A stretch of DNA of 64,000 nt from Mycolicibacterium aromaticivorans JS19b1 = JCM 16368 (lineage in GTDB: Bacteria; Actinomycetota; Actinomycetes; Mycobacteriales; Mycobacteriaceae). Both the position numbers and the translations under genes were made by a program. The notes below the pieces were generated by a model. The model was not told the DNA's origin. It searched no databases and saw only the letters and a list, made by a program, of their open reading frames with translations. The DNA lies in assembly GCF_000559085.1 (NCBI RefSeq), contig NZ_JALN02000001.1:992001-1056000 (forward strand), read 5' to 3'. Positions 1-15,367 of this stretch are shown here, piece after piece (position 1 is the stretch's first letter; each line of letters opens with the position of its first letter).

Positions 1-424
1 CCAGGCTGCGATCGGACCGATGAAGGACGGCGGCGGCGGGTCGATCGTCTCCATCGCCAGTGACGCGGCCTTCGGCCAGATCCGCCAGGGGGTCTACGGC
101 GCCTCGAAGGCGGCGATGGTGGCGTTGGCGCGCACCACGGCTCGCGAGCACGGCAGGCACGGCATCCGCTCCAACATCGTCTGCCCCGGTCTGGTGATCC
201 CGGAGAGCGCCGATGCGGTGGGCGCGGCCAGCCTGTGGTCGGTCGGCCAGGACGAGGTGTTCAATCCCAAGCAGATCGAGTTCATGCTCAAGGACACCCC
301 GACCCGTCAGCTCACCACCGCCGACGACGTCGGGAACGCAGTGCTGTTCTTCGCCTCCCCGGTGGCCGCCGGCCAGGTCACCGGACAGCTGATCTCGGTC
401 AGCGGCGGCTACACGATGCCCTGA
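1..424 (+). CDS. SDR family oxidoreductase, C-terminal part (5' truncated by window)
   Basis: This is the C-terminal part of a short-chain dehydrogenase/reductase, an NAD(P)-dependent Rossmann enzyme; the reading frame is already open at base 2, so the N-terminal cofactor site lies outside the window. The catalytic YxxxK is visible as YGASKAA, preceded by the strand and serine SIVSIAS. The family's closing motif is also present (GQVTGQLISVSGGYTMP). The substrate cannot be told. Its last 16 bases overlap the end of the convergent membrane-protein gene on the minus strand. Its position at the edge of the AveC/CrtI-like cluster makes a role in the same pathway possible but unproven. Confidence 0.85.
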   Translation, partial: QAAIGPMKDGGGGSIVSIASDAAFGQIRQGVYGASKAAMVALARTTAREHGRHGIRSNIVCPGLVIPESADAVGAASLWSVGQDEVFNPKQIEFMLKDTPTRQLTTADDVGNAVLFFASPVAAGQVTGQLISVSGGYTMP

Positions 425-1194
425 GACTCGGGCACCTTCGGTTCCACAAGCAGCCGGCCCAGCAAGCCCACCGTGCTGGCGATGCCGCCGACAACTGTCA
501 GCGCGGCGAGATGGACCAGCACCATCGGCGGGTTGTCGACCGAGTGGCGCACCGAAAGGTACAGGATCCCGGAGCCGAAAAGCCCTGCCGCGAAGGCCAT
601 CGGGACGACCGGGATCAGGTACAGGTAGCCGACTCCGCGCAACCGCGGGACCAGTCGATAAATCACGATGCCGCTGACCAGAGCCGATATCGCGTTGGTG
701 AAACCGAGGAAGATCGGGTAGCCGAGCACGACGAACGGCTGACTGTCCTGATACTCGTACACCTTCAGCACACTGATATAAGTCATCTCCGCCGCGATCG
801 CCATCACGACGATGAATGCGTACATCGTCCACACGGTGCGCATGGCAGGCCGGCGGGCAATCGTGCGAGCGATGAACACGCTGGCGCCGCCGTAGAACGT
901 CAGATATGCCGCAGGCACCCAGATCGGTTGATGACTACCAAATGTCGTGTAGAGGTGCCACTGGCCTTGCTCGCGGAACCATAACCCGTACAAGCGGTCG
1001 AAGAGCGGTTCCATCAGGCAGGTGAGCGTCCCGCTGACCAGGACGAACAGCGGCCAGACGATCGATTCCCGCCGGCACAGCCGCACAACCCACACCACCA
1101 CCATGGCCGCCAGAGCGAACGTGAGCACGGTGGCAATCCATTGGCCGGTCGGCCACACGGGCGTATCGATTCCTAGCGTCGTTACCGGTGCCAT
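409..1194 (-). CDS. Polytopic membrane protein, AveC-superfamily-like (copy 1 of 3 short type)
   Basis: A 261-residue protein with about seven hydrophobic segments and no exported domain. Helix 2 carries SGTLTCLMEPLFD, and the central part carries AEMTYISVLKVYEY followed by a proline and asparagine near GYPIFLGFTN. These two blocks (G..xC..EP..D and E-x9-Y-x-Y) recur in the genes at 3743 and 13702. They align in order with the two AveC-like proteins at 1207 and 9787, so I infer distant homology. A GGAGGA site lies just before the ATG. The gene begins 12 bases after the AveC-like stop, so the two are co-transcribed. The reaction is unknown; AveC itself is a spirocyclase/dehydratase acting in avermectin biosynthesis. 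Confidence 0.7.
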   Translation of the reverse strand: MAPVTTLGIDTPVWPTGQWIATVLTFALAAMVVVWVVRLCRRESIVWPLFVLVSGTLTCLMEPLFDRLYGLWFREQGQWHLYTTFGSHQPIWVPAAYLTFYGGASVFIARTIARRPAMRTVWTMYAFIVVMAIAAEMTYISVLKVYEYQDSQPFVVLGYPIFLGFTNAISALVSGIVIYRLVPRLRGVGYLYLIPVVPMAFAAGLFGSGILYLSVRHSVDNPPMVLVHLAALTVVGGIASTVGLLGRLLVEPKVPESQGIV

Positions 1195-1206
1195 CAGGTC
1201 CTCCGC

Positions 1207-2208
1207 TCAGCCCGCCAGCAGATAGCTGGGCAGATTGGCATGCGATGTTCCGATCAGCCCGAGCCAGTTGAACGGGAGGTGGTACACGAATACCAAAGTG
1301 ACCATGCAGAATCCGAGGACCGCGAAGTTGCGGACGTGACCGCGCAGCGACGGGCGCCACCGTTCGGCCCCGAGTTCGATCGGCGACTCTCCCACCGGCC
1401 GCTCCTCCGCCTCCATCCTGGCCCAGGTGAAGACACATCCCACGAAGGCCACCAGAATCGACTCGTAGATCGGGAACTGGTGCACCTCACCGGACCACAG
1501 GGTCAGCGGCTCATAGGTTTTCGCAAACGCGTAGGCGTGGGTGGTCCTGATCACCACATTCTCCACGACAAAATCGAAGATGAATTCGAAAATGAAGACA
1601 ATGGCGAACAGCCGAAATTTCGACATGGCCGGCCACCGGCGCCGCACCCGCTTCGCCTCGTGGCACGCTACGATGGCCACACCGGCGCAGAAGTAGATGT
1701 ACATCGGCGGGCCCCAAATCAGCGACTCCGCATACCGGCTCGGCGCCTCCGGGTTGTGGAACGGCAGAAACCGAACCCAGACACCGCGATTGACGTTCGC
1801 GCTGTTCCAGGCGAATAGATACTGCTGCACATTGAGGAAGGCGTCCGCCACGAAGCAGATGATGCCGCCGATCACGAACTTACCGTCAAGGCTCAACGAG
1901 CGGGTCTCACGCAGCGGCTTGACCACGCAATACCAGACGAAGGCCGCCATCACCGCGAGGCTGATCGCCTCGAAGATCCGCAGCGCGACCAGTCGCCAAT
2001 CTTCCATGACGTCGGGCCCGATCCGTGGCGCCGGGGTGAACTCCTCACCCGAAGTCACCCATCGCACAATGACTTCGACGCAGATCACGAACCACACGAC
2101 GCCGATGAGAGCCAGGAAGGTGGCCGGACCCTGCCGCCCCAGCGGCGGCGGATCCGAGACGGCCCGCTTCGCGGCGACCGTGTCACCGGGGCCCGTGGTC
2201 ACAGACAT
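1207..2208 (-). CDS. AveC-like (spirocyclase AveC family) membrane protein, copy 1
   Basis: A 333-residue polytopic membrane protein resembling the actinobacterial AveC-like family (AveC forms the spiroketal of avermectin). About seven membrane helices are visible. Marker blocks are GGIICFVADAFLN, then the soluble loop YLFAWNS..RGVWVRFLPFHNP, then VVENVVIRTTHAYAF, then HQFPIYESILV. The same blocks occur in the protein at 9787 (SGIDPLINYFHYTFAWN, VFIRTRVYAF, YQFPVYESIFV). A GGAGG ribosome site precedes the ATG by about nine bases. It is the first gene of a two-gene minus-strand unit and is divergent from a TetR gene 111 bases away, a likely regulator. The substrate is unknown; no polyketide synthase is in the window. 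Confidence 0.8.
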   Translation of the reverse strand: MSVTTGPGDTVAAKRAVSDPPPLGRQGPATFLALIGVVWFVICVEVIVRWVTSGEEFTPAPRIGPDVMEDWRLVALRIFEAISLAVMAAFVWYCVVKPLRETRSLSLDGKFVIGGIICFVADAFLNVQQYLFAWNSANVNRGVWVRFLPFHNPEAPSRYAESLIWGPPMYIYFCAGVAIVACHEAKRVRRRWPAMSKFRLFAIVFIFEFIFDFVVENVVIRTTHAYAFAKTYEPLTLWSGEVHQFPIYESILVAFVGCVFTWARMEAEERPVGESPIELGAERWRPSLRGHVRNFAVLGFCMVTLVFVYHLPFNWLGLIGTSHANLPSYLLAG

Positions 2209-2227
2209 CGCGAAAAACCTCCAGTAG

Positions 2228-2245
2228 ACAAACTAGTCATTTTGT
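2228..2245. promoter_or_regulatory. Possible TetR operator in divergent promoter
   Basis: An imperfect inverted repeat, ACAAA-N8-TTTGT, sits in the 111-base gap between the divergent AveC-like and TetR genes. A TAGACA half-site overlaps it on the left, and TAGACA is also part of the palindrome upstream of the next TetR pair at 3618. The arms are short and would occur by chance fairly often, so this is only a candidate autoregulatory site. Confidence 0.3.
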
Positions 2246-2319
2246 AACCGTTCGGGTGATAATGACGGCATACACGCCGTGATGTCAACGGGCGGGTCGA
2301 ACGCGGGTAGTCTGCCGAG

Positions 2320-2919
2320 ATGACTCCGACCCCACGCGAAGCCGCCCGAGGCCGGATCATCGCCGCGGCGCGGGAGCTGTTCCGCGCCAACGGGGTACGT
2401 GCGGTGACGATGACGGATGTCGCCCGCGGCGCGGGCTACAGCAGGCAGATGGTGTACAAGGTTTTCTTCGATCGTCGCGAGTTGGTGCTGGCCGCCGCCA
2501 TCGAGCGGATCGTCGAGATTGCCGATGCCGCCGCGCCTTGCGCCACCATTCCGGACGGTAGCTTCACCGAGTCGTTCGTCGAGCTCTCGGTGCAGATCAT
2601 CGAGACATTGCGCAATGACCCCGAACTGTCGGGACTGCTCGGCGACGGCAGCCCGATCACCGCGCACGAGGCCCTGTGGTCAGCCGAACTGGTGGAGCGC
2701 GGGCTACGCTTCTGGCAGCCGTGGCTCGACGTCGGCCGCGCACGGCATCTGCTTCGCGACGATCTGTCGAATCGGGATATCTCCGACTGGCTCCACACCG
2801 TCTACGCGTCGATCATCCTGCGCCGCAACATCCCTGAGGACGACGAGCGGGCGATGATCGAACGGTTCGTGATGACGTCACTCGCCATGGCGAGCGTTAC
2901 GCAACCTCACCTGCCGTAG
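2320..2919 (+). CDS. TetR family transcriptional regulator
   Basis: A 199-residue one-domain repressor. Residues about 5-50 form the TetR helix-turn-helix: AREAARGRIIAAARELF, then AVTMTDVARGAGYSRQMVYKVFFDRRELV. The remainder is the all-helical ligand-binding domain. It starts at an ATG 111 bases from the divergent AveC-like gene, the usual layout for a local autoregulator of its neighbour. Its 3' end overlaps the convergent TetR gene at 2907 by 13 bases. The ligand is unknown. Confidence 0.9.
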   Translation: MTPTPREAARGRIIAAARELFRANGVRAVTMTDVARGAGYSRQMVYKVFFDRRELVLAAAIERIVEIADAAAPCATIPDGSFTESFVELSVQIIETLRNDPELSGLLGDGSPITAHEALWSAELVERGLRFWQPWLDVGRARHLLRDDLSNRDISDWLHTVYASIILRRNIPEDDERAMIERFVMTSLAMASVTQPHLP

Positions 2920-3542
2920 AGCGTCCCGTTCCACATCGCGACGAGTGGGCCGACCATCGCCTCTTCGTCGGTCAGCTCGGGATCCACTCCCATGCCGGCG
3001 ATGTGCAGCACCCGCTCGGTGCTCCAGAACAGGGTGGCTGCCAGCGTCCGGCTCGGCAGGTCCGAGGTGATGAGCCCGGCCGCACGCTCGCGATCGATCT
3101 CGGCGGCACCTGCGGCGACGAAGCGCTCGACGACCGCAAGCCAGAGCGTGCGCAACGCCGGCTCGCTGTGCCAGTGCTGGTTGGCCGCCTGCAACACCGC
3201 CCGGTGCCGATGCCAGGTATGAGTCACCGCACGGATACTTCGCTCCAACGCCAACGAGGGTGGGTCGTCGGGCGAGCGCTCGAGAAACGGCTGCACGGTT
3301 CCGAAGATGTCCTCCATCGCCGCCTCGAGCAGACCGGACAGCACCGAGAACTTCGACGAGAAGTAAAAGTAGAACGTGGCTCTCGAGATGTTCGCCTCAG
3401 TGAGGATCTGCGCCACGCTGATGTCGGCGAACGCCTGACGCTCCATCAGCCGGGCCGTCGCCGCGTAGATGGCATCGACCGGCGGCACCCCGTTGAGGTC
3501 AACCGAGCGCGGTCGACGCGTCGCCTCCGTCATCGCAGCCAC
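2907..3542 (-). CDS. TetR family transcriptional regulator
   Basis: A 211-residue regulator with the TetR DNA-binding domain at about residues 20-65 (AIYAATARLMERQAFADISVAQILTEANISR, ending ATFYFYFSSK). The C-terminal half is helical and compatible with a TetR effector domain. It is divergent from the membrane-protein gene at 3743. The 200-base gap holds the perfect palindrome TGTCTAGACA at 3618-3627, a plausible binding site. It is not closely similar to the TetR next door, so the two may sense different ligands. Confidence 0.9.
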   Translation of the reverse strand: MAAMTEATRRPRSVDLNGVPPVDAIYAATARLMERQAFADISVAQILTEANISRATFYFYFSSKFSVLSGLLEAAMEDIFGTVQPFLERSPDDPPSLALERSIRAVTHTWHRHRAVLQAANQHWHSEPALRTLWLAVVERFVAAGAAEIDRERAAGLITSDLPSRTLAATLFWSTERVLHIAGMGVDPELTDEEAMVGPLVAMWNGTLYGR

Positions 3543-3617
3543 CTTACCGTCGCCGAGAGCCGCTCCACGCGGGCCCGTCCAATCAATCTAATCTAATTTC
3601 AAAACAGCTATACACAA

Positions 3618-3627
3618 TGTCTAGACA
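3618..3627. promoter_or_regulatory. Palindrome TGTCTAGACA, candidate TetR operator
   Basis: A perfect 10-base palindrome lies between the divergent TetR (3542, minus) and the membrane-protein operon (3743, plus). A wider dyad, ACAC...GTGT, surrounds it. The sequence around it is AT-richer than the flanking genes, as expected of a promoter. Binding is inferred only from position and symmetry. Confidence 0.45.
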
Positions 3628-3742
3628 CGATGTTAGTGTGAGCTGGTCCACAGGCGCCGAGCGGTGCCAGCGCCGCGGCAACCGCGGAGAAACAGCACGT
3701 CAGCGGGCATGCGGGCCCGAATCATAAGGAGAGGCCGAATCG

Positions 3743-4777
3743 ATGAGTCCCACGTTGAGCCTGAGTTGGTCACCCCTGGTGCAGGGTCAAGGATGGCCGC
3801 CCAACATCCTGCCGGCGCCCGGTGATTTCAGCGTCAGCCTGACCGCGGAGATCGCCTTCTTCTTGATCGCGGGCGCGCTGGCGGTTGTCGTCGCGCTGCC
3901 CTGGGCGATCCGGGCCGCGGTGCGCAGCCGCAACTACGTCCCGCTGATCGTGCTCGCCAGTGGCCTGATCTGCAGCCTGCTCGAGCCGATGCTCGACCTG
4001 CTCGGCCATCTGCACTGGGCCAACAACCTGATCCCCGCGTTCACCAACTTCGGGATCACGGTGCCCCTGCTGATCCCGCCGTGCTACATGGCGTTCCTGG
4101 GACTCGAGGCGTATTTCTGCTACTTCGTGATCCGCAATGGCGCCCATGCCAGCCACTTCGTGATGTTGCTGGGGATGGGCATCGTCACCGACGCCATCAT
4201 GGAGACCGCAGGCATCAACCTGGGCACGTACCTCTATTACGGCGTGCAACCGTTCAGCTTCCTGAACTTCCCGTACTGGTGGGGCTTCATCAACGGTGGT
4301 TCGTTCGTCACGATCGGCGCCATCCTCGCCTTCGCTGTCCCGAGACTCAAAGGCGCGCAGAAGCTCTTGCTGCTGCTGGTGGCTCCGTTCGGCATGATGG
4401 TCGCCTACTTCGGTGTGGGCTTCCCGCACATCCTGATCCACAACTCCACGCTGCCGACCGCCGTGCGTTGGATTGGCGCCGCCGTCATGATGGCGATGAT
4501 GGTGGGCTGGATGTTCGTGCTGCATCGCCTTGTCGGACGGCCGAATTCGCAGCCCGCGCCCAAGTGGACCTTCTGGCGGGTGTTCGCCTACGGCAAGTTC
4601 ATCCCGACCCGCACCGGCCGGCAGAACCTGTGGCGCAAGATGTGCGAGGAAGGCGGCGTCACGCCCGGCGACGGAATCGCCGTCGACCCCGAGGATCCCG
4701 CCCAGGCGCTTGTCGTCGGCCCGACCATCATCCTCAACGGATCCCAGCAGAACCGCCAGCCGGCAACGACGCTCTGA
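3743..4777 (+). CDS. Polytopic membrane protein, AveC-superfamily-like (short-type copy 2, with C-terminal extension)
   Basis: A 344-residue membrane protein and first gene of the plus-strand operon; an AGGAGA site lies about eight bases before the ATG. It shares with its paralogs SGLICSLLEPMLD in the second helix and METAGINLGTYLYYG, then FPYWWGFINGG, in the middle. These correspond to the blocks of the AveC-like proteins. Unlike the other two short-type copies it has a hydrophilic C-terminal tail of about 80 residues after the last helix (from about residue 265), which could contact a soluble partner such as the flavoprotein encoded next. Function is unknown. Confidence 0.7.
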   Translation: MSPTLSLSWSPLVQGQGWPPNILPAPGDFSVSLTAEIAFFLIAGALAVVVALPWAIRAAVRSRNYVPLIVLASGLICSLLEPMLDLLGHLHWANNLIPAFTNFGITVPLLIPPCYMAFLGLEAYFCYFVIRNGAHASHFVMLLGMGIVTDAIMETAGINLGTYLYYGVQPFSFLNFPYWWGFINGGSFVTIGAILAFAVPRLKGAQKLLLLLVAPFGMMVAYFGVGFPHILIHNSTLPTAVRWIGAAVMMAMMVGWMFVLHRLVGRPNSQPAPKWTFWRVFAYGKFIPTRTGRQNLWRKMCEEGGVTPGDGIAVDPEDPAQALVVGPTIILNGSQQNRQPATTL

Positions 4778-4789
4778 CCCGCGAAGCGG

Positions 4790-4823
4790 TGGGCCGGTTC
4801 CGAGTGCAACCGGTTCCGGCCCA
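4790..4823. terminator. GC-rich hairpin between operon genes 1 and 2
   Basis: Arms TGGGCCGG and CCGGCCCA are perfectly complementary; a nested CCGGTT/AACCGG pair inside the loop offers an alternative fold. There is no clear T-run. It sits in the 88-base gap between the membrane-protein gene and the flavoprotein gene. It could partly terminate transcription or stabilise the upstream mRNA so that the two genes differ in level. Confidence 0.4.
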
Positions 4824-4865
4824 TCGCCTTCCGTCCTTCCCTTCTACCTTCGATGAGGACTTGTC

Positions 4866-6587
4866 ATGTCTGAAGTTGCCCAGCCCCCGCGCGAAGTCGA
4901 CGTCGTTGTCGTCGGCTCCGGGCACAACGGCCTAGTCGCTGCGGCCTACCTGGCCAAGGCCGGGCTCAAGGTCTTGGTCGTGGAGGCGGCGGCCACCGCC
5001 GGTGGTATGACATCGACGAACTCGTTCGCCCCGGAAGCACCCGAATACACCATCAACGAGGCCTCGATTCAAGCGTCGTTGTTCCGCACCACCACGATCA
5101 ACGACGACCTCGAGCTGTCGACCCGTTACGGGCTGCGCCAGACCGTCATCGACCCTGCGCATTTCCAGCTGGCCGCCGACGGCAGCTCGCTCGGTCTGTG
5201 GCGCGACCCACGCAAGACGGCCTCGGAACTGGAGTACTTCTCCCGCAGGGATGCTCGCGCACTCCTCGAGCTCTACGAAGTGATCGACGCCGCTGTCGAG
5301 ATCGGCCTGCCGATGATGCAGACCAACGTTGTGGCACCCGACATCTCGGCAATCCTCAAGGCCGCCAGAGGCGTTGCGAAAAATCGCAGACAACTGAGTG
5401 CGATCGGGCGCTGGATGGCAAGCTCGCAGACCGAAGCGGTGGAAGAGAGCTTCGAGCACGACATGATCCGGGCGCCACTGCTGACATCGCTGCCGTTCAT
5501 GCCGTTCGACGCCGACCTGTCCGGGTGGTCGCTGATCTATCTCGGCGTGCTGTCCAAGTACGGCGTCGCCATGTTCCACGGCGGTACCGGTTCGCTGCCC
5601 AAGGCGCTGATCGGGGTCATCAAGGACAACGGCGGCGACATCATCACCAGCTCACCGGTTGAGGAACTCATCGTCGAGTCCAATCGCTGCGTCGGCGTCC
5701 GGGTTCGTGGCGGCACCGAGATCCGCGCCCGGCGTGGTGTTTTGACCGCATGCAGCCCGAAGACCACCCTGACCCGGCTGCTCCCCCGCGGCATCCTCGA
5801 GCACAAGAAGCAGGTTGCCGCCGACCACATCCCGACCCGCAAGCGCGGTATCGCCGACGCGAAAGTCAATGTCGCACTGTCGGGCCGGGTGGACATGTCC
5901 AAGCACGAGAAGTGGCGCGGCGACGGTATCGACCTGCGACTGGCCTGCAACTGCTACCACACTTACGAGCAAGCCAAAGAAGCCGCAAAGTCGTGCGTCC
6001 GGGGCCAGGTGCCCGACGCGATCCCCGGCCTGGCGCAGGTGACCAACGCGTTCGATCCGTCGATGTCGCCGCCGGGCAAGGACCTGTGGTGGTTCTGGAC
6101 CGGGCTGACCCCATCCTTTCCCGAAGAGGGGTGGGATGTGGCGCGCAAGAAGATCACCGACAGCATCATCAAAGATGCCGACCAGTACTACAAGGGTGTC
6201 GAGGATCTCCAGGTTGCCGTGCGGCCCTTGGTGTTGCCCGATATCGAGGAGCGGTTCTGGGCCATCGACGGCTCGGTGTATCACGTCGATCCGACGATCA
6301 GCCGATTCGGGCCCAACAAGCCGGTCAGCGGGTTCGCCGGCTATCGCACGCCGGTCGAAGGGCTGTTCCTGACCGGCTCGGGCACCCATCCGGTCGCCGG
6401 GATCAGCGGGATGCCCGGCCAGAATGCGGCGCGCACCATGCTCAAGCAGTTCCGCCTGGAAGATCAGGGCGGGCGCCTTGGCGCTCTGAAAGACCGGCTG
6501 CGGCGGGAACGTAAGCGCGTGGCGTTGTCCGAGAACCCATACGCGAGCGGGCCCAACGATCCCTTCCCGACTGAACTCTCGTCATGA
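4866..6587 (+). CDS. FAD-dependent oxidoreductase, phytoene-desaturase/PYROXD2-like, copy 1
   Basis: A 573-residue flavoprotein of the CrtI-type amine-oxidoreductase superfamily. The dinucleotide-binding motif is at residues about 13-40 (VVVVGSGHNGLVAAAYLAKAG, ending VVEA). GGMTSTNSF follows. The C-terminal FAD signature is GLFLTGSGTHPVAGISGMPG near residue 510. Members desaturate or isomerise polyenes and related lipids; the substrate is unknown, and no phytoene synthase (crtB) or GGPP synthase is in the window, so true carotenogenesis is not supported. It overlaps the next gene by four bases (ATGA). A diverged paralog lies at 8154 on the other strand. Confidence 0.85.
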   Translation: MSEVAQPPREVDVVVVGSGHNGLVAAAYLAKAGLKVLVVEAAATAGGMTSTNSFAPEAPEYTINEASIQASLFRTTTINDDLELSTRYGLRQTVIDPAHFQLAADGSSLGLWRDPRKTASELEYFSRRDARALLELYEVIDAAVEIGLPMMQTNVVAPDISAILKAARGVAKNRRQLSAIGRWMASSQTEAVEESFEHDMIRAPLLTSLPFMPFDADLSGWSLIYLGVLSKYGVAMFHGGTGSLPKALIGVIKDNGGDIITSSPVEELIVESNRCVGVRVRGGTEIRARRGVLTACSPKTTLTRLLPRGILEHKKQVAADHIPTRKRGIADAKVNVALSGRVDMSKHEKWRGDGIDLRLACNCYHTYEQAKEAAKSCVRGQVPDAIPGLAQVTNAFDPSMSPPGKDLWWFWTGLTPSFPEEGWDVARKKITDSIIKDADQYYKGVEDLQVAVRPLVLPDIEERFWAIDGSVYHVDPTISRFGPNKPVSGFAGYRTPVEGLFLTGSGTHPVAGISGMPGQNAARTMLKQFRLEDQGGRLGALKDRLRRERKRVALSENPYASGPNDPFPTELSS

Positions 6588-7291
6588 CGCGCGACGTTCA
6601 GCGCGTCATGGCGGTGTGCGGCGCAGCATTTGTATTGCTGCTGTTTCCGGCCATCATCATGATCGGGCTGCTGCCGCCGATGTCGCCGATGCGGACCGCC
6701 GAGCAGGTCGCGCAGTTCTGGTCGACCAACACCGGACTCAAGCGAACGGGTTTGGTGATCATGCTGGCCGCAGCGGGATTACAGGCGCCCTTCGGAGCAT
6801 TGATGGCGGTCCGGATTCGGCAGATGGACGGCACTCGGTACTCGCCGCTGGCCTACACCCAACTGGTCGGCACCGGACTTGCGGTGGTAGCGATCCTGAT
6901 GCCGACGTTCGCGTTCGCCGCGGCGTCGTACCGTCCGGAACGCGATCCTGAGGTCACCCAGGCGCTCAACGATCTGGGCTGGCTGCCCTTCGTGATGAAC
7001 TGGCCGGCCGCCACCATCCAGTGCCTGGTGATCGGGTTCGCCATCTTCGGGGCCAAGACCGCCGTCTGGCCGCGGTGGCTGGGTTACTTCAACGTGTGGT
7101 GCGCCTTCATCTTCGCCGCAGGCGGATTGGTGGTGCTCTTCAAAGACGGTGTCTTCGCGTGGAACGGGCTGCTGGCCTTCTGGTTGGTCGCGGTATTCTT
7201 CGGAGTGTGGTTCCTGATCATGTCGTGGCAGCTGTGGGTCACCGCATCGAGCGACGAAAGATGTTCGGCACAAGGCGTTTTGGCGACGTGA
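6584..7291 (+). CDS. Integral membrane protein, unknown function
   Basis: A 235-residue protein with about six hydrophobic segments. A first helix (VMAVCGAAFVLLLFPAIIMIG) is followed by an extracytoplasmic stretch, MSPMRTAEQVAQFWSTN. I do not recognise a named family with certainty. The start ATG overlaps the flavoprotein stop (ATGA), and its own stop overlaps the GTG of the oxidase-subunit-III gene (GTGA). It therefore sits inside a tightly coupled four-gene unit and probably works with the flavoprotein or the oxidase-like subunits as a membrane partner. Confidence 0.75.
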   Translation: MTRDVQRVMAVCGAAFVLLLFPAIIMIGLLPPMSPMRTAEQVAQFWSTNTGLKRTGLVIMLAAAGLQAPFGALMAVRIRQMDGTRYSPLAYTQLVGTGLAVVAILMPTFAFAAASYRPERDPEVTQALNDLGWLPFVMNWPAATIQCLVIGFAIFGAKTAVWPRWLGYFNVWCAFIFAAGGLVVLFKDGVFAWNGLLAFWLVAVFFGVWFLIMSWQLWVTASSDERCSAQGVLAT

Positions 7292-7875
7292 CTGCACTGC
7301 ACGACGTGGAGCCGCAGACCCAGCGCAGGATTCCCGGCGAAGAAGGAATCTGGGTTTTCGTCCTCGGCGATATGACGGTGTTCGCGCTGTTCTTCGCGAC
7401 CTTCATGTATTCGCGGGGCAAGAACCCACAGTCGTTCGCCGCGGGGCACGCCGACCTCCACGTCGCGCTCGGGACCGTGAACATCGTTCTGCTGCTGAGT
7501 AGTTCACTGCTGGTCGTCCTCGGCGTTCAGCGGGTGCTCGCCGGTCGGCATCAGAACGCCACCCGGTTGTTCACCGGTGCGATCGGCTGTGGTGCCGGGT
7601 TCGTGGTGGTCAAAGCCGTCGAGTGGACTCAACTGTTCAGCGCAGGCAAGGGTGTCAGCAGCGGTGAATACTTCTCGTACTACTTCGTGTTCACCGGAAT
7701 CCACCTGGTGCATGTGCTGATCGGGATGGCGCTGCTCACCCGGTTGACCTTCCTCACCCGGCGGCCCACGCTCGAAGATACTCAGCGCCGGCTGTGTGAG
7801 ACCGGTGGAATCTTCTGGCACATGGTGGATCTGCTCTGGGTGGTTCTGTTCGCGCTGTTCTATCTGGTGAGGTGA
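7288..7875 (+). CDS. Cytochrome c oxidase subunit III family protein (CtaE/NorE-like), orphan
   Basis: About 195 residues with five membrane helices of the heme-copper oxidase subunit III type. Family marks are KAVEWTQLF, FVFTGIHLVHVLIGM and the last helix FWHMVDLLWVVLFALFYL. I chose the GTG at 7288 because it gives the GTGA overlap with the upstream stop, as in the other junctions of this operon. An in-frame ATG at 7261 would add nine residues. No subunit I or II is adjacent: the only ctaD in the window is 38 kb away. The role may be in an alternative oxidase, as with NorE, or in a complex with the cluster's flavoprotein. Confidence 0.85.
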   Translation: MTALHDVEPQTQRRIPGEEGIWVFVLGDMTVFALFFATFMYSRGKNPQSFAAGHADLHVALGTVNIVLLLSSSLLVVLGVQRVLAGRHQNATRLFTGAIGCGAGFVVVKAVEWTQLFSAGKGVSSGEYFSYYFVFTGIHLVHVLIGMALLTRLTFLTRRPTLEDTQRRLCETGGIFWHMVDLLWVVLFALFYLVR

Positions 7876-8147
7876 CGATGACCGCCACGCGTCGGTTGAC
7901 CCTGGTGTGGGCAGTGCTCCTGGCGCTGACCTTCGGATCGTTCGTGGTCGGTATCGAGCAGAGCGCCGATCTCGCTGGGGCCGCCGCGATCGCGATCATC
8001 GGGATCGCCCTGTTCAAGGTGCGCCTCATCGGTCTGCATTTCATGGACGTACGGATTGCGCCGACGGCCCTGCGTGTCCTGTTCGAGGGTTACGTGCTCG
8101 TGGTGTTCGCGGCACTGGTCGTCCTCGACCTGGTGGTCAGGCCCTGA
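7872..8147 (+). CDS. Cytochrome c oxidase subunit IV-like (COX4/CyoD-type) small membrane protein
   Basis: 91 residues with three hydrophobic segments (LTLVWAVLLALTFGSFVVG, AAAIAIIGIALFKVRLIGLHFM, YVLVVFAALVVLDLVV). KVRLIGLHFMDVR matches the conserved prokaryotic subunit IV loop. The start is GTG at 7872, overlapping the subunit III stop by GTGA, so the pair is translationally coupled. It ends the plus-strand operon and is convergent with the flavoprotein at 8154, with six bases between. Subunit IV stabilises heme-copper oxidases; here its catalytic partner is not evident. Confidence 0.75.
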   Translation: MTMTATRRLTLVWAVLLALTFGSFVVGIEQSADLAGAAAIAIIGIALFKVRLIGLHFMDVRIAPTALRVLFEGYVLVVFAALVVLDLVVRP

Positions 8148-8157
8148 GGGGTCTCAG
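8144..8157. terminator. Small hairpin at convergent gene ends
   Basis: CTGAG-GGGT-CTCAG overlaps both stop regions where the two cluster operons meet tail to tail. The stem has five pairs and there is no T-run, so it is at best a weak bidirectional terminator. Confidence 0.25.
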
Positions 8158-9773: not shown

Positions 9774-9786
9774 TTCTCCTCGAGAG

Positions 9787-10776
9787 TTACGGCGTTGTGG
9801 GACCGGGCAGCATGTAGGACGGCGGAGTGATGATCGAGTCGGGATTGACCGACATCCAGCTCCAGGGGATGAAGTACGCCAGTGCCGCCCACACGGCGCA
9901 GAACCCGATGACTGCGAGCAGCTTCACCGGCGTCCGGAACTGGCTGGGCCAGCGCTGGATTCCGCGATGTAAGAACGGAGTCCCGTCCGCACTGTCGTGG
10001 GCTGACATCCGCAGATAGGTGAATCCGGCGGCGTAGATCGCGACGAAGATGCTCTCGTACACCGGGAACTGATAGGGCGTGCCGGCGAACAGGGTGAGGG
10101 CTTCCCACGCGCGGGGGAAGGCGTAGACCCGGGTGCGGATGAATACCTGCTCGATCACCATGTCCACGCAGAAGATGGCGACGAACGCCACGCTGAACGA
10201 CCGAATGTTGGGGATGCTCGGGTAGCGCCGGCGCAGCGCGAGGATGATGCGGCACTCGATGGCGGCCAAACCAATGCCCAGGTAGAGGTACTGCGGCACG
10301 AACCAGGCCAATCCCTCGGCGTATCGCGTCGGTCCCTGGTGCAGCGGGAAGAACGCCAGCCACGATCCAGCGTTGAGCGCGTGCGCATTCCACGCGAACG
10401 TGTAGTGAAAGTAGTTGATCAGCGGGTCGATACCGGAGGCGAGCAGCGATCCGATGACGATCATCCCGTCTAGGGTCAGCTTGCGCTGCACGATCAACGG
10501 CTTGATGAGGAACACCCAGATGGTCGCCGCGGCGATCAGCAGGCTGACCACCTCGATGACGCGCAGCACCACCAGCGCGGTGCCGTCGAATACATCCGGC
10601 CCCTGGATGGGCGCCGGGCCGAACTGCGTGTCGGACAGAACCCATCGGGTCCACGCCTGCCCGACGAACAGGATCCACGCGACACCCAGTAGCGCCCACA
10701 GCGAGACCGCACCTCGTTGCGCGTCGGCGCCGAGCGTGTCTGGAGTGGTACGGCGGGACGGACTGTCGGTCAGCAC
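9787..10776 (-). CDS. AveC-like (spirocyclase AveC family) membrane protein, copy 2
   Basis: About 329 residues, a clear paralog of the protein at 1207: both have WVL/WVT..FxPAPxxGPDV near the N-terminus, a FAWN loop, RTRVYAFPRAWEALTLFAG and YQFPVYESIFVAIY. It has about seven membrane helices. I chose the GTG at 10776, seven bases after the phosphotransferase stop; an upstream GTG at 10815 would overlap that gene by 32 bases. It is the third gene of the four-gene minus-strand operon. Whether it cyclises, dehydrates or transports is unknown. Confidence 0.8.
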   Translation of the reverse strand: MLTDSPSRRTTPDTLGADAQRGAVSLWALLGVAWILFVGQAWTRWVLSDTQFGPAPIQGPDVFDGTALVVLRVIEVVSLLIAAATIWVFLIKPLIVQRKLTLDGMIVIGSLLASGIDPLINYFHYTFAWNAHALNAGSWLAFFPLHQGPTRYAEGLAWFVPQYLYLGIGLAAIECRIILALRRRYPSIPNIRSFSVAFVAIFCVDMVIEQVFIRTRVYAFPRAWEALTLFAGTPYQFPVYESIFVAIYAAGFTYLRMSAHDSADGTPFLHRGIQRWPSQFRTPVKLLAVIGFCAVWAALAYFIPWSWMSVNPDSIITPPSYMLPGPTTP

Positions 10777-10783
10777 GGGGTGC

Positions 10784-11893
10784 TCAACGGTTGCCGATGA
10801 ACGTCGCGGTCTCACCCGTCAGCGCCGAGAGGCCGAGCAATTCGGCCAACAGCTGGCTGGCCGGATTGTTCAGTGCCATCGGCGAATCCGGCGGCATAAG
10901 GCCCATCGCGATCATCATGTGTGCGGCCCGCACCATGATGATGGACAGTTTGGTGGCGGCGAGGATCTCGTAATAGTCGATGTCCACCGGGGTGTAGCCG
11001 GTGATCGACGTGTAGTACGCCAGAGTGTCGGCGCGATCCGGAATGCCCTCCGGGAGCGGAAATCCGATCCCCTCGGTGTGGTGCCGCATCAGGAACAGCC
11101 ACCAACCGAGGTCGAGTTCACGGCAGCCCAGGGTCACCATCTCCCAGTCGAGCAGCGCGGCGGCCGACAGGTCGTCGGCGAAGATGATGTTGCCGACCCG
11201 GGCGTCACCCCAATTCAGCACCGTCGCCGACGGCGCGGCGGGAACATTGTCGGCGAGCCATTCCAATGCGTGCTCGATGGTGGGATTGGCCTCCCCGTCG
11301 GCCGCCCAGGTGAACGACTCACGCCAGTTGGCGAGCTGGGCGTGCACTCCGCTGCCGTTGGCATCGGTGTCCAAGAAGTCCAGGCCCAGCGCCCGCCAAT
11401 CAGCGGCGTGGATCTGTGCGAGCGCATTGATACTGTTGTGCCACATGGTGGTTCGTTGCTCCGGGGTGAGATCGAGGACCCACCCACCCGCGGTGAACGG
11501 CGGATCATCAGAGGGCACCCGGCCGTCGACCCGCTGCATGACCAGGAAGGGCGACCCGAACACCGCCGGATCCTGCTCGTAGAAATACACCTCGGGTACC
11601 GGCACCCCCACCGAGCCAAGCGCAGCGATGACACTGGCTTCCTTGCCGAGGTCATACGACGCGAACACGCCTTGGCCCGCCGGTTGCACCCGGGCCACCA
11701 TCTTGCGGGTGTGGACCGTCCCAGCCTGGTGCCACGATGCCGTGAACAACACCGTTTCGTTGGACAGACCTGCCGAGGCAGGAACTTCCAGGTCGGTCAC
11801 CTGAACATGTTGGGCTCCATCGATTTTCGATTCCATCCACGCGGCCAGTCGCCGCGATGCATCCTCGGTGTCGATCTCGTTCTTCAACGCCAT
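10784..11893 (-). CDS. Phosphotransferase family protein (APH/ACAD10-like kinase fold)
   Basis: 369 residues. The kinase-like fold shows the catalytic loop LNWGDARVGNIIF (aspartate and asparagine of the Brenner motif) and the metal-binding LLDWEM, with the N-lobe segment AGLSNETVLFTASW and the hinge FLVMQRVDGRVP. Relatives phosphorylate small hydroxylated molecules, including hydroxyacyl-CoA in the ACAD10 group; antibiotic resistance is less likely in this context. The ATG at 11893 is the start: the frame stays open upstream, but that stretch only shadows the next gene. It is the second gene of the minus-strand operon. Confidence 0.85.
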   Translation of the reverse strand: MALKNEIDTEDASRRLAAWMESKIDGAQHVQVTDLEVPASAGLSNETVLFTASWHQAGTVHTRKMVARVQPAGQGVFASYDLGKEASVIAALGSVGVPVPEVYFYEQDPAVFGSPFLVMQRVDGRVPSDDPPFTAGGWVLDLTPEQRTTMWHNSINALAQIHAADWRALGLDFLDTDANGSGVHAQLANWRESFTWAADGEANPTIEHALEWLADNVPAAPSATVLNWGDARVGNIIFADDLSAAALLDWEMVTLGCRELDLGWWLFLMRHHTEGIGFPLPEGIPDRADTLAYYTSITGYTPVDIDYYEILAATKLSIIMVRAAHMMIAMGLMPPDSPMALNNPASQLLAELLGLSALTGETATFIGNR

Positions 11894-11906
11894 GTCGGTG
11901 TTCCTC

Positions 11907-12962
11907 TCACGCTGTCGGTGTGGGCAGCAGGCGGTGACCGAGCATCGCCCGCTGGTAGGTGTCGAACCAGATCTCCTGGTAGGTGGCATGGGTGACCCGC
12001 CCGTGGTCGTCCTCCCACCGATAAACGCTGTCGTGGAACGAGACGTTGGGCCAGGCGGGAAGTACCGCCGACGCAATGGCTTCGCCGCGGAAACGGTAGG
12101 TGTCACCGCACGCGTCTTGCGCGGTGATCTCCTGGCGGGTGGCCAGGTGGATGGTGGGGTGGTACTCGAGCACGTCGCGACGCACCGATGTGACGGCTCG
12201 TGTTTCGTCACCACGTTGCACCCATGCGTAGTGGTGCGACGGACGATCGCCCACCTCGTACAGGCCCGCCCAGCGGGGATCGGTGTCGAGGGGTTCGAAG
12301 CTGATCTGGTTGAAGACGAGGTCGGGCCCGAAGTACATGGGCGACCAGCCGACCGGCGGGCTCGGAACCGCCCCGCGTCGTTCCACCCGGATCTGGCGCC
12401 AGGACCGGTCCCGCGGCGCGAAGCATTCGACGTCATAGCTGGTGCCGTCCAACCGCAGCTGACCGGTGACGTGCATGAACTGCTCGCTGCCCCCGGGCTG
12501 GCGGGAGTGCACGTGATGAGCTTCCTCGCCGGGCATGACGTGCCCGCGGGCCAGCAGCGGCGTGACCGCCTCGGCGATGAGATCGAACGACATGCGGTCG
12601 TCGACTGCGGTGTAGCGCAGTCGAGCCACCGCGCCGGGCTCGATGAATTCGATCGAGAAACCGTTGTCGGTGGTGATCGTGTTTCCGTCTACCGTCGGCC
12701 ACGGCATCGTGATCTCGTAGTCGTGGTAGGCGATGTCGGTCAGTTCGATGTTGTCGTTGCCCTGGAACACGCACACGCCCCCCTGGGACAGCGGGAATGC
12801 CGGCTGATAGCGGATATAGAGGAACGCGCCGATCGCGGCCTCGGGAACCGAGAAGCCGAAGTAGTGCGTGTGGATCAGATGCGGATCCCAGCTCTCGCCT
12901 GCCGCCGGCAGCGGGATCAGCAGGTCGGTGTCGCCACCATGAATCCCCAATTCCGAACTCAC
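11907..12962 (-). CDS. Hypothetical protein, AttH/CrtC-like beta-barrel type
   Basis: 351 residues, soluble, rich in alternating beta strands, with no signal peptide or membrane segment. Repeated aromatic blocks such as IHTHYFGFSVPE, MPWPTVDGN and FAPRDRSWRQIRV recall the AttH/hydroxyneurosporene-synthase (CrtC) lipocalin-like fold, whose members hydrate lipids or carotenoids. This assignment is by pattern only. It is the first gene of the four-gene operon with the phosphotransferase, AveC-like and CrtI-like genes, which suits a lipid-modifying role. The promoter region is shared with the divergent TetR at 13047. Confidence 0.55.
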   Translation of the reverse strand: MSSELGIHGGDTDLLIPLPAAGESWDPHLIHTHYFGFSVPEAAIGAFLYIRYQPAFPLSQGGVCVFQGNDNIELTDIAYHDYEITMPWPTVDGNTITTDNGFSIEFIEPGAVARLRYTAVDDRMSFDLIAEAVTPLLARGHVMPGEEAHHVHSRQPGGSEQFMHVTGQLRLDGTSYDVECFAPRDRSWRQIRVERRGAVPSPPVGWSPMYFGPDLVFNQISFEPLDTDPRWAGLYEVGDRPSHHYAWVQRGDETRAVTSVRRDVLEYHPTIHLATRQEITAQDACGDTYRFRGEAIASAVLPAWPNVSFHDSVYRWEDDHGRVTHATYQEIWFDTYQRAMLGHRLLPTPTA

Positions 12963-13009
12963 TCCGCACCATCCCTCATGTGAACCTGCCCAACCTTCGC
13001 TAACATAAC

Positions 13010-13024
13010 GTCCGATGAACGGAC
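13010..13024. promoter_or_regulatory. Inverted repeat GTCCG-N5-CGGAC
   Basis: A perfect five-base dyad with a five-base spacer in the 84-base divergent promoter between the AttH-like operon and the TetR at 13047. It is next to, and distinct from, the 20-base motif at 13028. It may be a second operator or overlap the minus-strand promoter. Confidence 0.4.
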
Positions 13025-13027
13025 TAT

Positions 13028-13047
13028 CAAGTATGAAAATTCATTCA
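13028..13047 (-). promoter_or_regulatory. 20-base operator candidate, copy A
   Basis: CAAGTATGAAAATTCATTCA (plus-strand reading) contains the dyads ATGAA-AA-TTCAT and TGAA-N6-TTCA. The same 20-mer with two changes occurs at 14634-14653. In both cases the motif begins 63-66 bases upstream of a minus-strand start codon (12962 and 14571). Copy A also reaches the first base of the TetR start codon at 13047, so binding would block that gene. This is strong evidence of a shared local regulator, most simply the TetR itself. Confidence 0.6.
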
Positions 13048-13697
13048 TGGTAGACAATCGCACTGTGCCGACACAGGACAAGCCCGCGACGCGGACCGAA
13101 CGCCAGCGCGAACGCACCCGCCGGCAACTGCTGGACGCCGGCCGTACCCTGATCGCCTCGAAAGGCGTTCCCGGACTTCGCATCCAGGAGATCACCGAGC
13201 AAGCCGACATCGCGCTCGGTTCGTTCTACAACTACTTCCCTTCCAAAGAAGAGTTCTTGGAAGCGGTGATCACCGAGAGCCTTTCGGATCTGGCGTCGGC
13301 GACCATCAGCGACGTCGACGATTCGACCGATCCCGCCGAAGTCGTCACCTTGGCCTCGCTGCGGGTGATCAGGTTGGCGTACACCGAGCCCGATTTCGCC
13401 CGGCTGATCGTCAACATCGGTCATTCGGAGGCATTGTTCGGGGCCGCCATGCACCCCCATGCCCGGGTGGCCGTCGAACGCGGCGTTGCCAGTGGCCGTT
13501 TCGAGATCGCCGATCTCGAGGTATTGCTGACGACGGTGATCGGCGCTGCTTTCGCGCTGATCCGGGAGATTCTCGACGGTCGTCACAATGACCATGCCGA
13601 ACGCGCGTTCGCCCGCCACATCCTCGCGATGCTGGGCCTCACGCCGGCCGAGGCCAAGGCGGTCGTCACCAAGGTCGCCAAGTCCGAACGGTCCTGA
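13047..13697 (+). CDS. TetR family transcriptional regulator
   Basis: 216 residues. The DNA-binding domain spans about residues 18-65 (RTERQRERTRRQLLDAGRTL, then IQEITEQADIALGSFYNYFPSKEEF). A helical ligand-binding domain follows. The start ATG lies directly on the 20-base repeated motif, implying autorepression. It is divergent from the AttH-like four-gene operon and ends four bases from the convergent membrane gene at 13702, whose promoter carries the second motif copy. It is the best candidate for the regulator of this half of the cluster. Confidence 0.9.
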   Translation: MVDNRTVPTQDKPATRTERQRERTRRQLLDAGRTLIASKGVPGLRIQEITEQADIALGSFYNYFPSKEEFLEAVITESLSDLASATISDVDDSTDPAEVVTLASLRVIRLAYTEPDFARLIVNIGHSEALFGAAMHPHARVAVERGVASGRFEIADLEVLLTTVIGAAFALIREILDGRHNDHAERAFARHILAMLGLTPAEAKAVVTKVAKSERS

Positions 13698-13701
13698 CCG
13701 G

Positions 13702-14571
13702 TCAGGCCGTCGCCGGTTCTCTGGCCTTGACGGTGTCGCCCGCCCCGAATACCGCCGCCTTGAGAATGCCGGCCTTCGACTTGATGAACACCTCCTCGTC
13801 GGGGCGCGCCACCACGAACGACAGCACCCAGACGTAGGTCAGCGCCAGACCCAGAGTGACCAGCCAGGCGAAGTGCGTGACCCACAGCGAGGCGTCAAGG
13901 TTCAGCGCCGTCCACACCGGCCACGCGGCGGCACCATTGGCGATCCCGTCCGACATCGGAATGAAGGCGACGACCAGCGCCAGCCGCCATCCCGGCAGGT
14001 GCTGACGCATCCGGTAAATCAGTGCGCCAGCCGTCATCGGCATCAGCGGATTCACGCACACCCACCACAGCGGCAGACCCCAGAAGTTCAGCGGTTGCGG
14101 GCCGTAGTACTCATAGGCACCCATGAGTACCCCGGGACTCTCCAGAAAGATGTTGATGAACACGTCGATCACGTAGAGCTGGAAGATCTGCTTGCGGGTC
14201 ACTCCCGTCGAATAGATGCGAAATGCCAGGTAGGCCAGGCCGCCGACGTACCAGATGTAGACGAAGTTGATGAACAGCGGAAAGTCGCGCCCCATCGAGG
14301 AGAACGTCGTCGTGACCGCGCCCTGGCGGATATAGCACAACCCCAACGTGTCCACAATCGGCTCGAACAGGCAGGCAATGCCACCGCCGATCAGGCAGAA
14401 CAGCAGCAACGGCCCCTTCCCGACAATCAAATGCCGAACCGCGAAGAACACCATGACGACCACCGGAATACCGAGGAAGACGGTGAACAGCACCTCGGGC
14501 ACGAACGGCATCGGGGTTGTCGGATGCGCGGGAATCGGCGGTGCGGCAAGCACATTGTCGAGCGCGGACAT
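13702..14571 (-). CDS. Polytopic membrane protein, AveC-superfamily-like (short-type copy 3)
   Basis: 289 residues with about seven hydrophobic helices. It carries IGGGIACLFEPIVD in the early helix and FLESPGVLMGAYEYYG, then LPLWWVCVNPL, in the centre, matching SGLICSLLEPMLD and METAGINLGTYLYYG of the copy at 3743. It appears monocistronic, with its own promoter containing motif copy B. Three copies of such a protein within 14 kb, each beside AveC-like or CrtI-like genes, suggest heteromeric assembly or parallel substrates. Exact function unknown. Confidence 0.7.
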   Translation of the reverse strand: MSALDNVLAAPPIPAHPTTPMPFVPEVLFTVFLGIPVVVMVFFAVRHLIVGKGPLLLFCLIGGGIACLFEPIVDTLGLCYIRQGAVTTTFSSMGRDFPLFINFVYIWYVGGLAYLAFRIYSTGVTRKQIFQLYVIDVFINIFLESPGVLMGAYEYYGPQPLNFWGLPLWWVCVNPLMPMTAGALIYRMRQHLPGWRLALVVAFIPMSDGIANGAAAWPVWTALNLDASLWVTHFAWLVTLGLALTYVWVLSFVVARPDEEVFIKSKAGILKAAVFGAGDTVKAREPATA

Positions 14572-14633
14572 GTCTGTCTCCTTAGGTGCGCATTCATCGG
14601 CACCCGGAGCGTAACGTCGAGTGAATCAGTATT

Positions 14634-14653
14634 CAAGTATGAAAAGTTATTCA
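14634..14653 (-). promoter_or_regulatory. 20-base operator candidate, copy B
   Basis: CAAGTATGAAAAGTTATTCA matches 18 of 20 bases of the site at 13028 in the same orientation and at nearly the same distance from a minus-strand start (63 versus 66 bases). An extra dyad, TGAAT-N4-ATTCA, lies immediately to its left at about 14622-14635. It belongs to the promoter of the membrane gene at 14571 and lies just outside the end of the protease gene. Confidence 0.6.
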
Positions 14654-14657
14654 GTGA

Positions 14658-15305
14658 TCACGGCAGGATCCGCAACCCCCACTGCGCCAGCAAGGGCTGC
14701 ACGAGGGTGAAGTACGTCGTGTAGTCGTCGCCGTCGGGCGAGGACATCAAGATGCCGACTGCGCTGACGGTGCCGTCCGGATTCTTGACGAAGCCCGGAC
14801 TGCCGCTGTCCCCTTCGAGGCTGTAGACGCTGGCTTCGACGACATCACCCTCGACGCCCTTGACTTCACCGCAGGTCTCCCCGGTGACCGCGCCGACCTT
14901 GCAGAACGGCATACCGGCGCGAATCTGGCTGGCGCCCAGCACGTCCCGAACCAAGTATCGGCCGCCGACGTCGCCGTTGGGTGGGCCAACGCCGGGGTCG
15001 AGACGAATGATGGCCGCGTCCCGCTTGTCGCCATTCACCTCGCTCGCACTGATGGTCCCGAGCAGAGTGTCGTCTTCGCCGTACGTCCACGCCGAGCCGT
15101 CGTGCGCATCGCAGTGCCCGCTGGTCAGCAGGTAATTGTTGCCGTCGTTGTCCTGTGCCGCGAAACCCGCTGTGCAGCGACCACTTTCGTCGTCGACCTC
15201 GATGCCTGGCGTGGGAGGCGGCGCCGCCATCGCTGGGCTGGCCAAGCCGACCGCAGCGCTCAGAGCAACACTCGCCAGGCACGCGAACCGCCACCGGACA
15301 CCCAT
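14658..15305 (-). CDS. Secreted S1 (chymotrypsin-fold) serine protease
   Basis: 215 residues. A signal peptide is visible (MGVRWRFACLASVALSAAVG, cleavage likely after AMA). The mature part has the S1 catalytic marks: histidine in LTSGHC, a likely aspartate in DAAIIRLD and serine in GDSGSPG. Two disulfide pairs are possible. The mature domain of about 185 residues matches the alpha-lytic/streptogrisin size but lacks a long pro-region, so it may act without one. The ATG at 15305 is chosen for the very strong AGGGGAGG site and the signal peptide. It is divergent from the FMO-like gene. Confidence 0.9.
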   Translation of the reverse strand: MGVRWRFACLASVALSAAVGLASPAMAAPPPTPGIEVDDESGRCTAGFAAQDNDGNNYLLTSGHCDAHDGSAWTYGEDDTLLGTISASEVNGDKRDAAIIRLDPGVGPPNGDVGGRYLVRDVLGASQIRAGMPFCKVGAVTGETCGEVKGVEGDVVEASVYSLEGDSGSPGFVKNPDGTVSAVGILMSSPDGDDYTTYFTLVQPLLAQWGLRILP

Positions 15306-15367
15306 TTCGACCTCCCCTGGAGTGAATCGAGGCGATCGTACGACAGGACCGTGGAAGACTTCGTCCA

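Follow-up and report, generated by a model that had tools for sequence, protein, structure and literature searches.

The DNA analysed here, called the window, is a stretch of 64,000 nucleotides from the genome of Mycolicibacterium aromaticivorans JS19b1 (contig NZ_JALN02000001.1, positions 992,001 to 1,056,000), and this report concerns the locus at its beginning, where two AveC-like membrane proteins (AveC1 and AveC2) and three shorter membrane proteins (short proteins A, B and C) are encoded together with two flavoproteins. The gene positions given in an earlier note, made from the sequence alone, agree with the gene calls over positions 1-16900, and the short-chain dehydrogenase/reductase (SDR) that it placed in the cluster is cut by the window start and whole in the genome (265 amino acids, aa). 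The features are as follows.

1..424, plus strand: 3' part of the 265-aa SDR gene (adh_short; L014:11628-12425), which starts 374 bases upstream of the window and belongs to the upstream catabolic set
409..1194, minus strand: short protein A, 261 aa, polytopic membrane protein, remote AveC homologue by profile comparison and motif
1207..2208, minus strand: AveC1, 333 aa, AveC_like PF17198 (Pfam)
2320..2919, plus strand: TetR regulator 1 (PF00440)
2907..3542, minus strand: TetR regulator 2, with EthR_C domain (domain match)
3743..4777, plus strand: short protein B, 344 aa, of the subfamily present in most loci (27/51)
4866..6587, plus strand: flavoprotein 1, 573 aa, CrtO/CrtI-like, under the CrtO and CrtI cut-offs
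6584..7291, plus strand: 235-aa membrane protein without Pfam family, with relatives in 20 of the loci L015-L065
7207..7875, plus strand: cytochrome c oxidase subunit III-like protein (COX3), start uncertain
7872..8147, plus strand: COX4_pro protein, 91 aa
8154..9773, minus strand: flavoprotein 2, 539 aa, paralogue of flavoprotein 1
9787..10815, minus strand: AveC2, 342 aa, AveC_like PF17198; its GTG start overlaps the APH gene, and the true start may be further in
10784..11893, minus strand: APH-type phosphotransferase, 369 aa (PF01636)
11907..12962, minus strand: DUF7064 protein, 351 aa (DUF7064 above cut-off, DUF7065 under cut-off)
13047..13697, plus strand: TetR regulator 3 (domain match)
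13702..14571, minus strand: short protein C, 289 aa, with seven long helices in the predicted model (predicted local distance difference test, pLDDT, 87.8)

Judged by strand and spacing, these genes form three operon-like groups, namely AveC1-short A on the minus strand, in which the AveC1 stop codon lies 12 bases ahead of the short A start; short B, flavoprotein 1, the 235-aa membrane protein and the COX3-like and COX4-like genes on the plus strand; and DUF7064, APH, AveC2 and flavoprotein 2 on the minus strand. Short C stands alone, and the three TetR genes are interspersed between the groups. Each of the three groups carries one or two genes of the AveC superfamily, and in two of the groups such a gene has a flavoprotein gene as its partner.

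Single-sequence HMMER searches of the genome itself with short B and short C as queries found the other two short proteins (E 2.6e-17 to 1.4e-9, 25-29% identity), and by this similarity A, B and C are one family. None of the three passed the cut-off of any Pfam or NCBIfam family (A and C gave chance-level rows, E 0.26-0.64) or matched PHROG at E 0.01. The genes at 1207 and 9787, taken as AveC-like in the earlier note, were indeed both over the PF17198 gathering cut-off of 26.6, AveC1 scoring 100.7 bits (E 1e-28) and AveC2 104.5 bits (E 8e-30). The same model matched none of the three short proteins at E <= 1 and 0/41 members of the short family at E <= 0.1, and for this reason we call the short proteins remote relatives and not members of the AveC family.

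The relationship between the two families was examined by comparison of profiles. Iterated profiles stayed separate, the best outsider matches of each profile coming from the opposite family (E 0.006 and 0.02), and a first comparison, made with profiles of 3 and 2 sequences, showed no relation (2.7%). With 40 short and 18 AveC sequences, hhalign gave 90%, E 1.5e-6 and a score of 54.2 over 164 columns, as against a score of at most 23.7 in 68 comparisons of the same two profiles with 34 further families from these loci. A second pair of alignments gave 94% and E 1e-7, and 75 short against 26 AveC sequences gave 85 and 93%. In decoy tests the true score was 58.4, compared with at most 36.2 for AveC profiles shuffled in 10-column blocks (25 decoys) and at most 23.1 for reversed AveC profiles (16 decoys).

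The earlier note had also described a motif shared by all five proteins, with G..xC...[ED]P..[DN] in an early helix and a central block of Glu, Tyr and Pro, and this was found in a relaxed, two-part form in all five window proteins, in 89/115 members of the short family and in 29/44 of the AveC family, as against 0/667 of the remaining proteins in these loci that are 200-450 aa long and 4/3180 shuffles; the relaxed motif was written after both families had been seen, and the counts include the window proteins and near-identical orthologues. In an extended alignment of 215 residue pairs, residues E70, P71, D74 and Y105 of short C fall on D130, P131, N134 and Y176 of AveC2, and E144, Y153, Y155 and P167 on E222, Y231, F233 and P251, while P98, P160 and N174 align with unlike residues. 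Among 41 short-family sequences E70, P71, D74, Y105, E144 and P167 are invariant, and among 18 AveC sequences D130 and Y176 are invariant and E222 and P251 are kept in 17. In the widest short set (75 sequences) the E70 column holds Glu in 73, and the E144 column holds Glu in 65, Gln in 6 and Ile in 3, so that some members of the family may have lost or changed the predicted activity. The helices of the short C model and of the AveC2 model (pLDDT 81.3), predicted from separate alignments, agree at 87% of the aligned positions, whereas shifted alignments averaged 55% and did not exceed 80%. By the alignment and the predicted models, the two families thus correspond over six helices with matching conserved acids, tyrosines and proline, and differ in that the short family is without the first helix of AveC and has one extra helix at the end. 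By sequence, no solved structure was matched by the short profile and one was matched by the AveC profile at E 0.09, and Foldseek searches with the short C and AveC2 models returned nothing at E <= 0.001. Taken together, the homology between profiles above controls and the conserved residues and helices in register uphold the proposal that the three short proteins are related to AveC, and establish, at the level of aligned sequences, that short A, B and C together with AveC1 and AveC2 make up one superfamily with shared acidic, tyrosine and proline residues.

Among the partner enzymes, both flavoproteins are of the flavin amine-oxidoreductase type, the closest NCBIfam model being CrtO. Since flavoproteins 1 and 2 scored 259 and 238 bits against the CrtO beta-carotene ketolase model NF045689 (cut-off 1000), we do not call them CrtO; their scores against the CrtI family TIGR02734 (76 and 98; cut-off 238) were likewise below the cut-off. 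The sole match of flavoprotein 2 to a PDB sequence at 1e-5 was the phytoene dehydrogenase 4dgk. The phosphotransferase was correctly recognised (APH, PF01636), and the protein that had been described as AttH/CrtC-like passed the DUF7064 cut-off and fell below that of DUF7065. In some relatives, a flavin amine oxidase gene lies beside further short paralogues (L015:14456-15859 and L141:10263-11624); the cluster of the window has no such gene.

The locus had been regarded as a compact cluster, but it is one end of a catabolic-looking run of about 57 kb (genome positions about 949-1006.6 kb), of which it forms the downstream end. Going away from the window, the SDR is followed by three enoyl-CoA hydratases and the Rieske alpha and beta genes; next come a thiolase (PRK06205, over cut-off), an HMG-CoA-synthase-like protein, a second thiolase (PRK06157, over cut-off), an SDR and FadD. 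Further upstream lie a second FadD, an enoyl-CoA hydratase, an acyl-CoA dehydrogenase, a 437-aa flavin amine oxidase, membrane proteins of the 235-aa family and a third FadD, and then a cytochrome P450, an SDR (by eye), an aldehyde dehydrogenase, a pyridine-nucleotide oxidoreductase, an acyl-CoA dehydrogenase and a thiolase (by similarity). At the far end, two regulators (by eye) precede an operon of two YrbE permeases, six Mce-like proteins and small companions, one YrbE and one Mce protein of which were confirmed by family test. Because the genes run on in this way into enoyl-CoA hydratase, Rieske, thiolase, ligase, P450 and Mce genes, a compact biosynthetic cluster was rejected as the first choice. 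The genome holds 15 MlaE genes in about 8 operons; the nearness of one Mce operon is therefore unremarkable in itself, and what is remarkable is its contiguity with the locus. In the upstream set, the 467-aa HMG-CoA-synthase-like protein (L014:4583-5986) carries a ChsH2-type zinc ribbon and adjoins a thiolase, a pair that resembles the retro-aldolase pairs of steroid side-chain degradation.

Species genomes were scanned with a pattern made from the three aligned short proteins, and 51 loci were obtained. They come from Mycobacterium and the genera split from it, Gordonia, Amycolatopsis, Actinomycetospora, Nocardioides, Antrihabitans, Patulibacter and two metagenome-assembled actinobacteria (Solirubrobacterales, Sporichthya), and from Pseudomonas migulae, Pseudomaricurvus and Zhongshania. 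In the genus sample the short family is present in at least 51/297 genomes, many of them with several copies (seven candidates per genome were scored, and both the 51 and the copy numbers are lower bounds); AveC_like is present in 222/297, and the two families occur together in 46 of the 51 genomes. When short B alone was used to search 150 sampled genomes of the order, it matched the genome itself and two weak cases. Seven loci (L015-L021) retain the order short A-AveC1-TetR1-TetR2-short B-flavoprotein 1, and the same seven genomes hold the module flavoprotein 2-AveC2-APH-DUF7064-short C about 10 to 84 kb away. For the refuting condition of the earlier note, a gene set not conserved together in relatives, the outcome is mixed: these seven genomes keep the set as two modules, which range from sharing a single 21-kb stretch to lying about 84 kb apart, while many more loci contain one module or single genes only, in new arrangements. 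A Rieske alpha gene accompanies short or AveC genes in 10/51 loci of differing arrangement, including Gordonia oryzae and Pseudomonas migulae, and a YrbE permease was found in 14/70 short-gene loci (1.31 Mb in total), where about two would be expected by an estimate from the gene density of the genome itself. The genes of the short and AveC families form one contiguous run with a CoA-dependent degradation set and an Mce import operon, a linkage that several relatives share.

In 50 loci (L058, the remaining one of the 51, yielded no short gene with the gene caller used), the genes up to four places away from a short gene included a flavoprotein of this family in 29 cases, an APH- or EcKL-like kinase in 26, DUF7064 in 22 and AveC in 20. 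In 20 further regions, chosen by hand for several or divergent short genes, the corresponding numbers were 6, 0, 0 and 5, and 12/20 regions had two or more short genes. This difference between the two sets of loci indicates that the short family has settings beyond the present cluster. PPDK_N and PEP-utilizer genes were found in loci of Amycolatopsis and M. franklinii. In L030 and L034, and with similar genes in L029, such genes occur with a DUF7065 protein adjoining short B, and there the PPDK_N and PEP-utilizer genes look like a split dikinase that would phosphorylate a hydroxyl group.

Most of this gene content is already in print as the island MmGI-1 of Mycobacterium massiliense (Sekizuka et al. 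2014, PMC4263727), for which that paper suggests additional lipid metabolism and gives, in its main text and Table 1, no pathway. The entries of Table 1 include two beta-carotene ketolases (564 and 540 aa), two hypothetical proteins (346 and 291 aa), a phosphotransferase of 370 aa, TetR regulators, an mce operon, an SDR of 265 aa, three enoyl-CoA hydratases, a Rieske hydroxylase of 422 aa, an HMG-CoA synthase of 451 aa, thiolases, FadD, a phytoene dehydrogenase of 433 aa, a P450 of 419 aa and an aldehyde dehydrogenase of 466 aa (PMC4263727). Judged by the product names and lengths of the table alone, this content is like that of the island described here, although much of the MmGI-1 gene list is unrelated to it. 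As tabulated, the genes between the 346-aa protein and YrbE follow the same order as locus L030 does between short B and YrbE; in comparison with the genome of the window, the order agrees inside blocks (for example Rieske/enoyl-CoA hydratase/thiolase) and the blocks are placed differently. The 346- and 291-aa proteins appear in the table without family or function, AveC and short A are not identifiable in it, and the word AveC is absent from the main text. The statement of the earlier note that no pathway of this composition had been described therefore stands as far as a pathway is concerned, but not for the gene content. A literature search for AveC together with a Rieske degradation gene cluster, or for AveC-like proteins together with carotenoids and mycobacteria, returned none, most subscription journals being outside the search, and one for the spirocyclase AveC family gave one taxonomic paper.

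As to the substrate, the earlier note had suggested a lipid or isoprenoid, and a hydrophobic, possibly isoprenoid compound fits the neighbours of short-family genes in other genomes. Ten short-gene neighbours in the regions L131, L134, L135 and L137 include two RPE65/carotenoid oxygenases and two MPAB_Lcp proteins (rubber-oxygenase family), as well as SCP2, SRPBCC, FMO-like and acyl-CoA dehydrogenase proteins. In a survey of 15 genomes, hand-picked from the 51 with the family for several or divergent short genes, an RPE65 gene lay within 15 kb of 9/40 short-gene clusters (0.8 expected from gene density) and MPAB_Lcp was near 6/40 (1.9 expected); nine of the genomes and the present one had been inspected beforehand, and related genomes are not independent. 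Among the nine RPE65 cases, those in G260, G397, G475 and G502 had been seen beforehand and that in G344 lay in an already-fetched stretch, while G240, G266, G375 and G500 are clean. In this survey some short-family matches of some genomes are missing, and a broken copy in G266 is counted twice. The RPE65 genes near short genes are 10/18 of those scoring under 320 bits and 0/32 of the higher-scoring ones, where the 320 bits mark a score band and not a tested clade, 50/52 rows were used (two fragments being left out) and two of the 18 are themselves partial. L134, L140 and L145 are among the places where RPE65/carotenoid oxygenases under 320 bits lie near short-family genes. The island of the window itself has no RPE65 or MPAB_Lcp gene near.

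AveC of Streptomyces avermitilis is reported to carry out spiroketal formation and dehydration in avermectin biosynthesis (PMC13303154, PMC6490886). The setting here is, in contrast, catabolic-looking, and kinship was judged through AveC1 and AveC2. We consider it probable, though well short of certain, that the locus supplies the membrane enzymes at one end of a catabolic island for an imported hydrophobic, probably isoprenoid, compound, the short and AveC proteins being putative cofactor-free acid-base membrane enzymes; terpenoid or carotenoid fragments would be the likeliest substrate class. In the proposed route, the Mce system would import the compound, and the P450 and the aldehyde dehydrogenase would oxidise it. 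The AveC-superfamily proteins would then act inside the membrane by cofactor-free acid-base chemistry, bringing about a double-bond shift, a hydration or dehydration, or a ring opening or closure, with E70 and mostly E144 of short C, and D130 and E222 of AveC2, as the predicted acids. This acid-base step is proposed because of the dual activity reported for AveC and the aligned acids. The pairing of the modules with CrtO-like flavoproteins suggests that isomerisation or (de)hydration would be followed by flavin oxidation, the product passing to the partner FAD enzyme (flavoprotein 1 in the case of short B, flavoprotein 2 in that of AveC2) for desaturation or oxidation. The APH kinases, or the PPDK_N/PEP-utilizer genes, in the loci suggest phosphorylation of a hydroxyl group, by which APH might make a leaving group. 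The last stages of the breakdown would fall to the CoA ligases, enoyl-CoA hydratases, thiolases and Rieske dioxygenase.

The same genes could instead be biosynthetic, tailoring an isoprenoid or polyketide-like envelope lipid, with the catabolic neighbours recycling or supplying precursors. AveC itself is, in the sources cited above, biosynthetic (PMC13303154, PMC6490886); CrtO and CrtI, the nearest named models of the flavoproteins, stem from carotenoid synthesis; and the genome has two squalene/phytoene-synthase genes, though these are megabases away. We regard this as rather unlikely in view of the contiguous Mce import operon and CoA degradation set, and since no backbone synthase was seen among the scanned cluster and upstream proteins (not every gene was scanned, and no family-aimed search for polyketide or terpene synthases was made). 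The patchy presence of the family (at least 51/297 genus genomes) also speaks against envelope-lipid synthesis and suits an accessory island. It is improbable, in our estimation, that the short proteins are no enzymes at all and serve as Insig-like membrane lipid binders, carriers or sensors that present the substrate to the flavoproteins. On this point a second look with Foldseek at the AveC2 model listed no row for MvINS (Insig, 4xu4), which excludes nothing, and an INSIG family search of 98 genomes found none, though no control genome scored either.

It could further be argued that the similarity of the short proteins to AveC is a convergence of hydrophobic helices with a chance motif, and that the short proteins are an unrelated family, given that direct searches do not cross (best cross-matches E 0.006 and 0.02) and that the first comparison of 3 and 2 sequences gave only 2.7%. 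The score of 54, where 34 control families reach no more than 24, that of 58, where locally shuffled AveC profiles reach no more than 36, the alignment of most conserved residues on conserved residues, and the helix agreement of 87%, where shifted alignments average 55% and stay within 80%, leave very little probability to convergence.

The carotenoid hydratase CruF is a cofactor-free membrane enzyme acting on isoprenoids, and it has the same Glu ... Gly-x-Tyr-x-Tyr ... Gly-x-Pro pattern as the short family. Comparison of short-family with CruF (PF04240) profiles gave 16-46% and scores of 31.7-37.5, against at most 20.5 for CruF and 22.0 for the short family with 53 control families each, and local shuffles of the CruF profile reached 28 against 33 for the true profile. 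No membrane protein of the window matched PF04240 at E <= 1, and the genome itself has no protein of that family. From these profile scores, kinship of the short family with CruF is possible, and the similarity, which concerns the short family and not AveC, hints at a wider superfamily. AveC and CruF profiles scored 20.0-21.0 and later 21.4 and 26.5, not clearly above controls. The heterodimeric lycopene cyclases CrtYc/CrtYd are small polytopic proteins with genes in pairs, and short genes are likewise paired in 10/20 of the regions L131-L150. The domain of these cyclases (PF18916) scored 24.6-31.9 against the short family, compared with at most 22.4 for controls, and local shuffles of it reached 23 against 27 for the true profile; no membrane protein of the window matched it, and a first, smaller short profile gave nothing. 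CruF and the lycopene cyclases did not match (20.8-22.4), and AveC and the cyclases scored 28.6 and 30.5 over 33 and 9 columns only. A tentative and on balance doubtful proposal is that AveC, the short family, CruF and CrtYc/CrtYd descend from an ancient superfamily of membrane enzymes with six to seven helices that would protonate C=C or C-OH groups of membrane-dissolved isoprenoids or polyketides, and which in mycobacteria and some gammaproteobacteria would, paired with CrtO-like flavoproteins, open an undescribed route of Mce import and terpenoid lipid degradation. We keep its probability low because the AveC-CruF and CruF-cyclase links are not, or barely, above controls and only the short-CruF link is.

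The analysis provides a superfamily and a testable chemistry for multicopy membrane proteins that have no Pfam family and occur in at least 51/297 genomes of the genus; in the table published for MmGI-1, proteins of the same size and setting are labelled hypothetical. It suggests that the AveC fold is used beyond macrolide biosynthesis, in a putative lipid-import and degradation island. If the link to carotenoid hydratases is true, the spirocyclase and the carotenoid end-group enzymes would be of common ancestry.

Some further features of these loci may be mentioned. The family of the 235-aa membrane protein (window 6584-7291) has several further copies upstream (L100), often adjoining COX3/COX4-like genes, and the pair of COX3-like and COX4_pro genes (window 7207-8147; NorE-like by eye) adjoins flavoproteins and short genes in several loci. 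At window 14658-15368, a protein that had no Pfam match at 1e-6 looks secreted, carries by eye a chymotrypsin-like motif and lies beside short C in close relatives as well (L054, L057 and L059).

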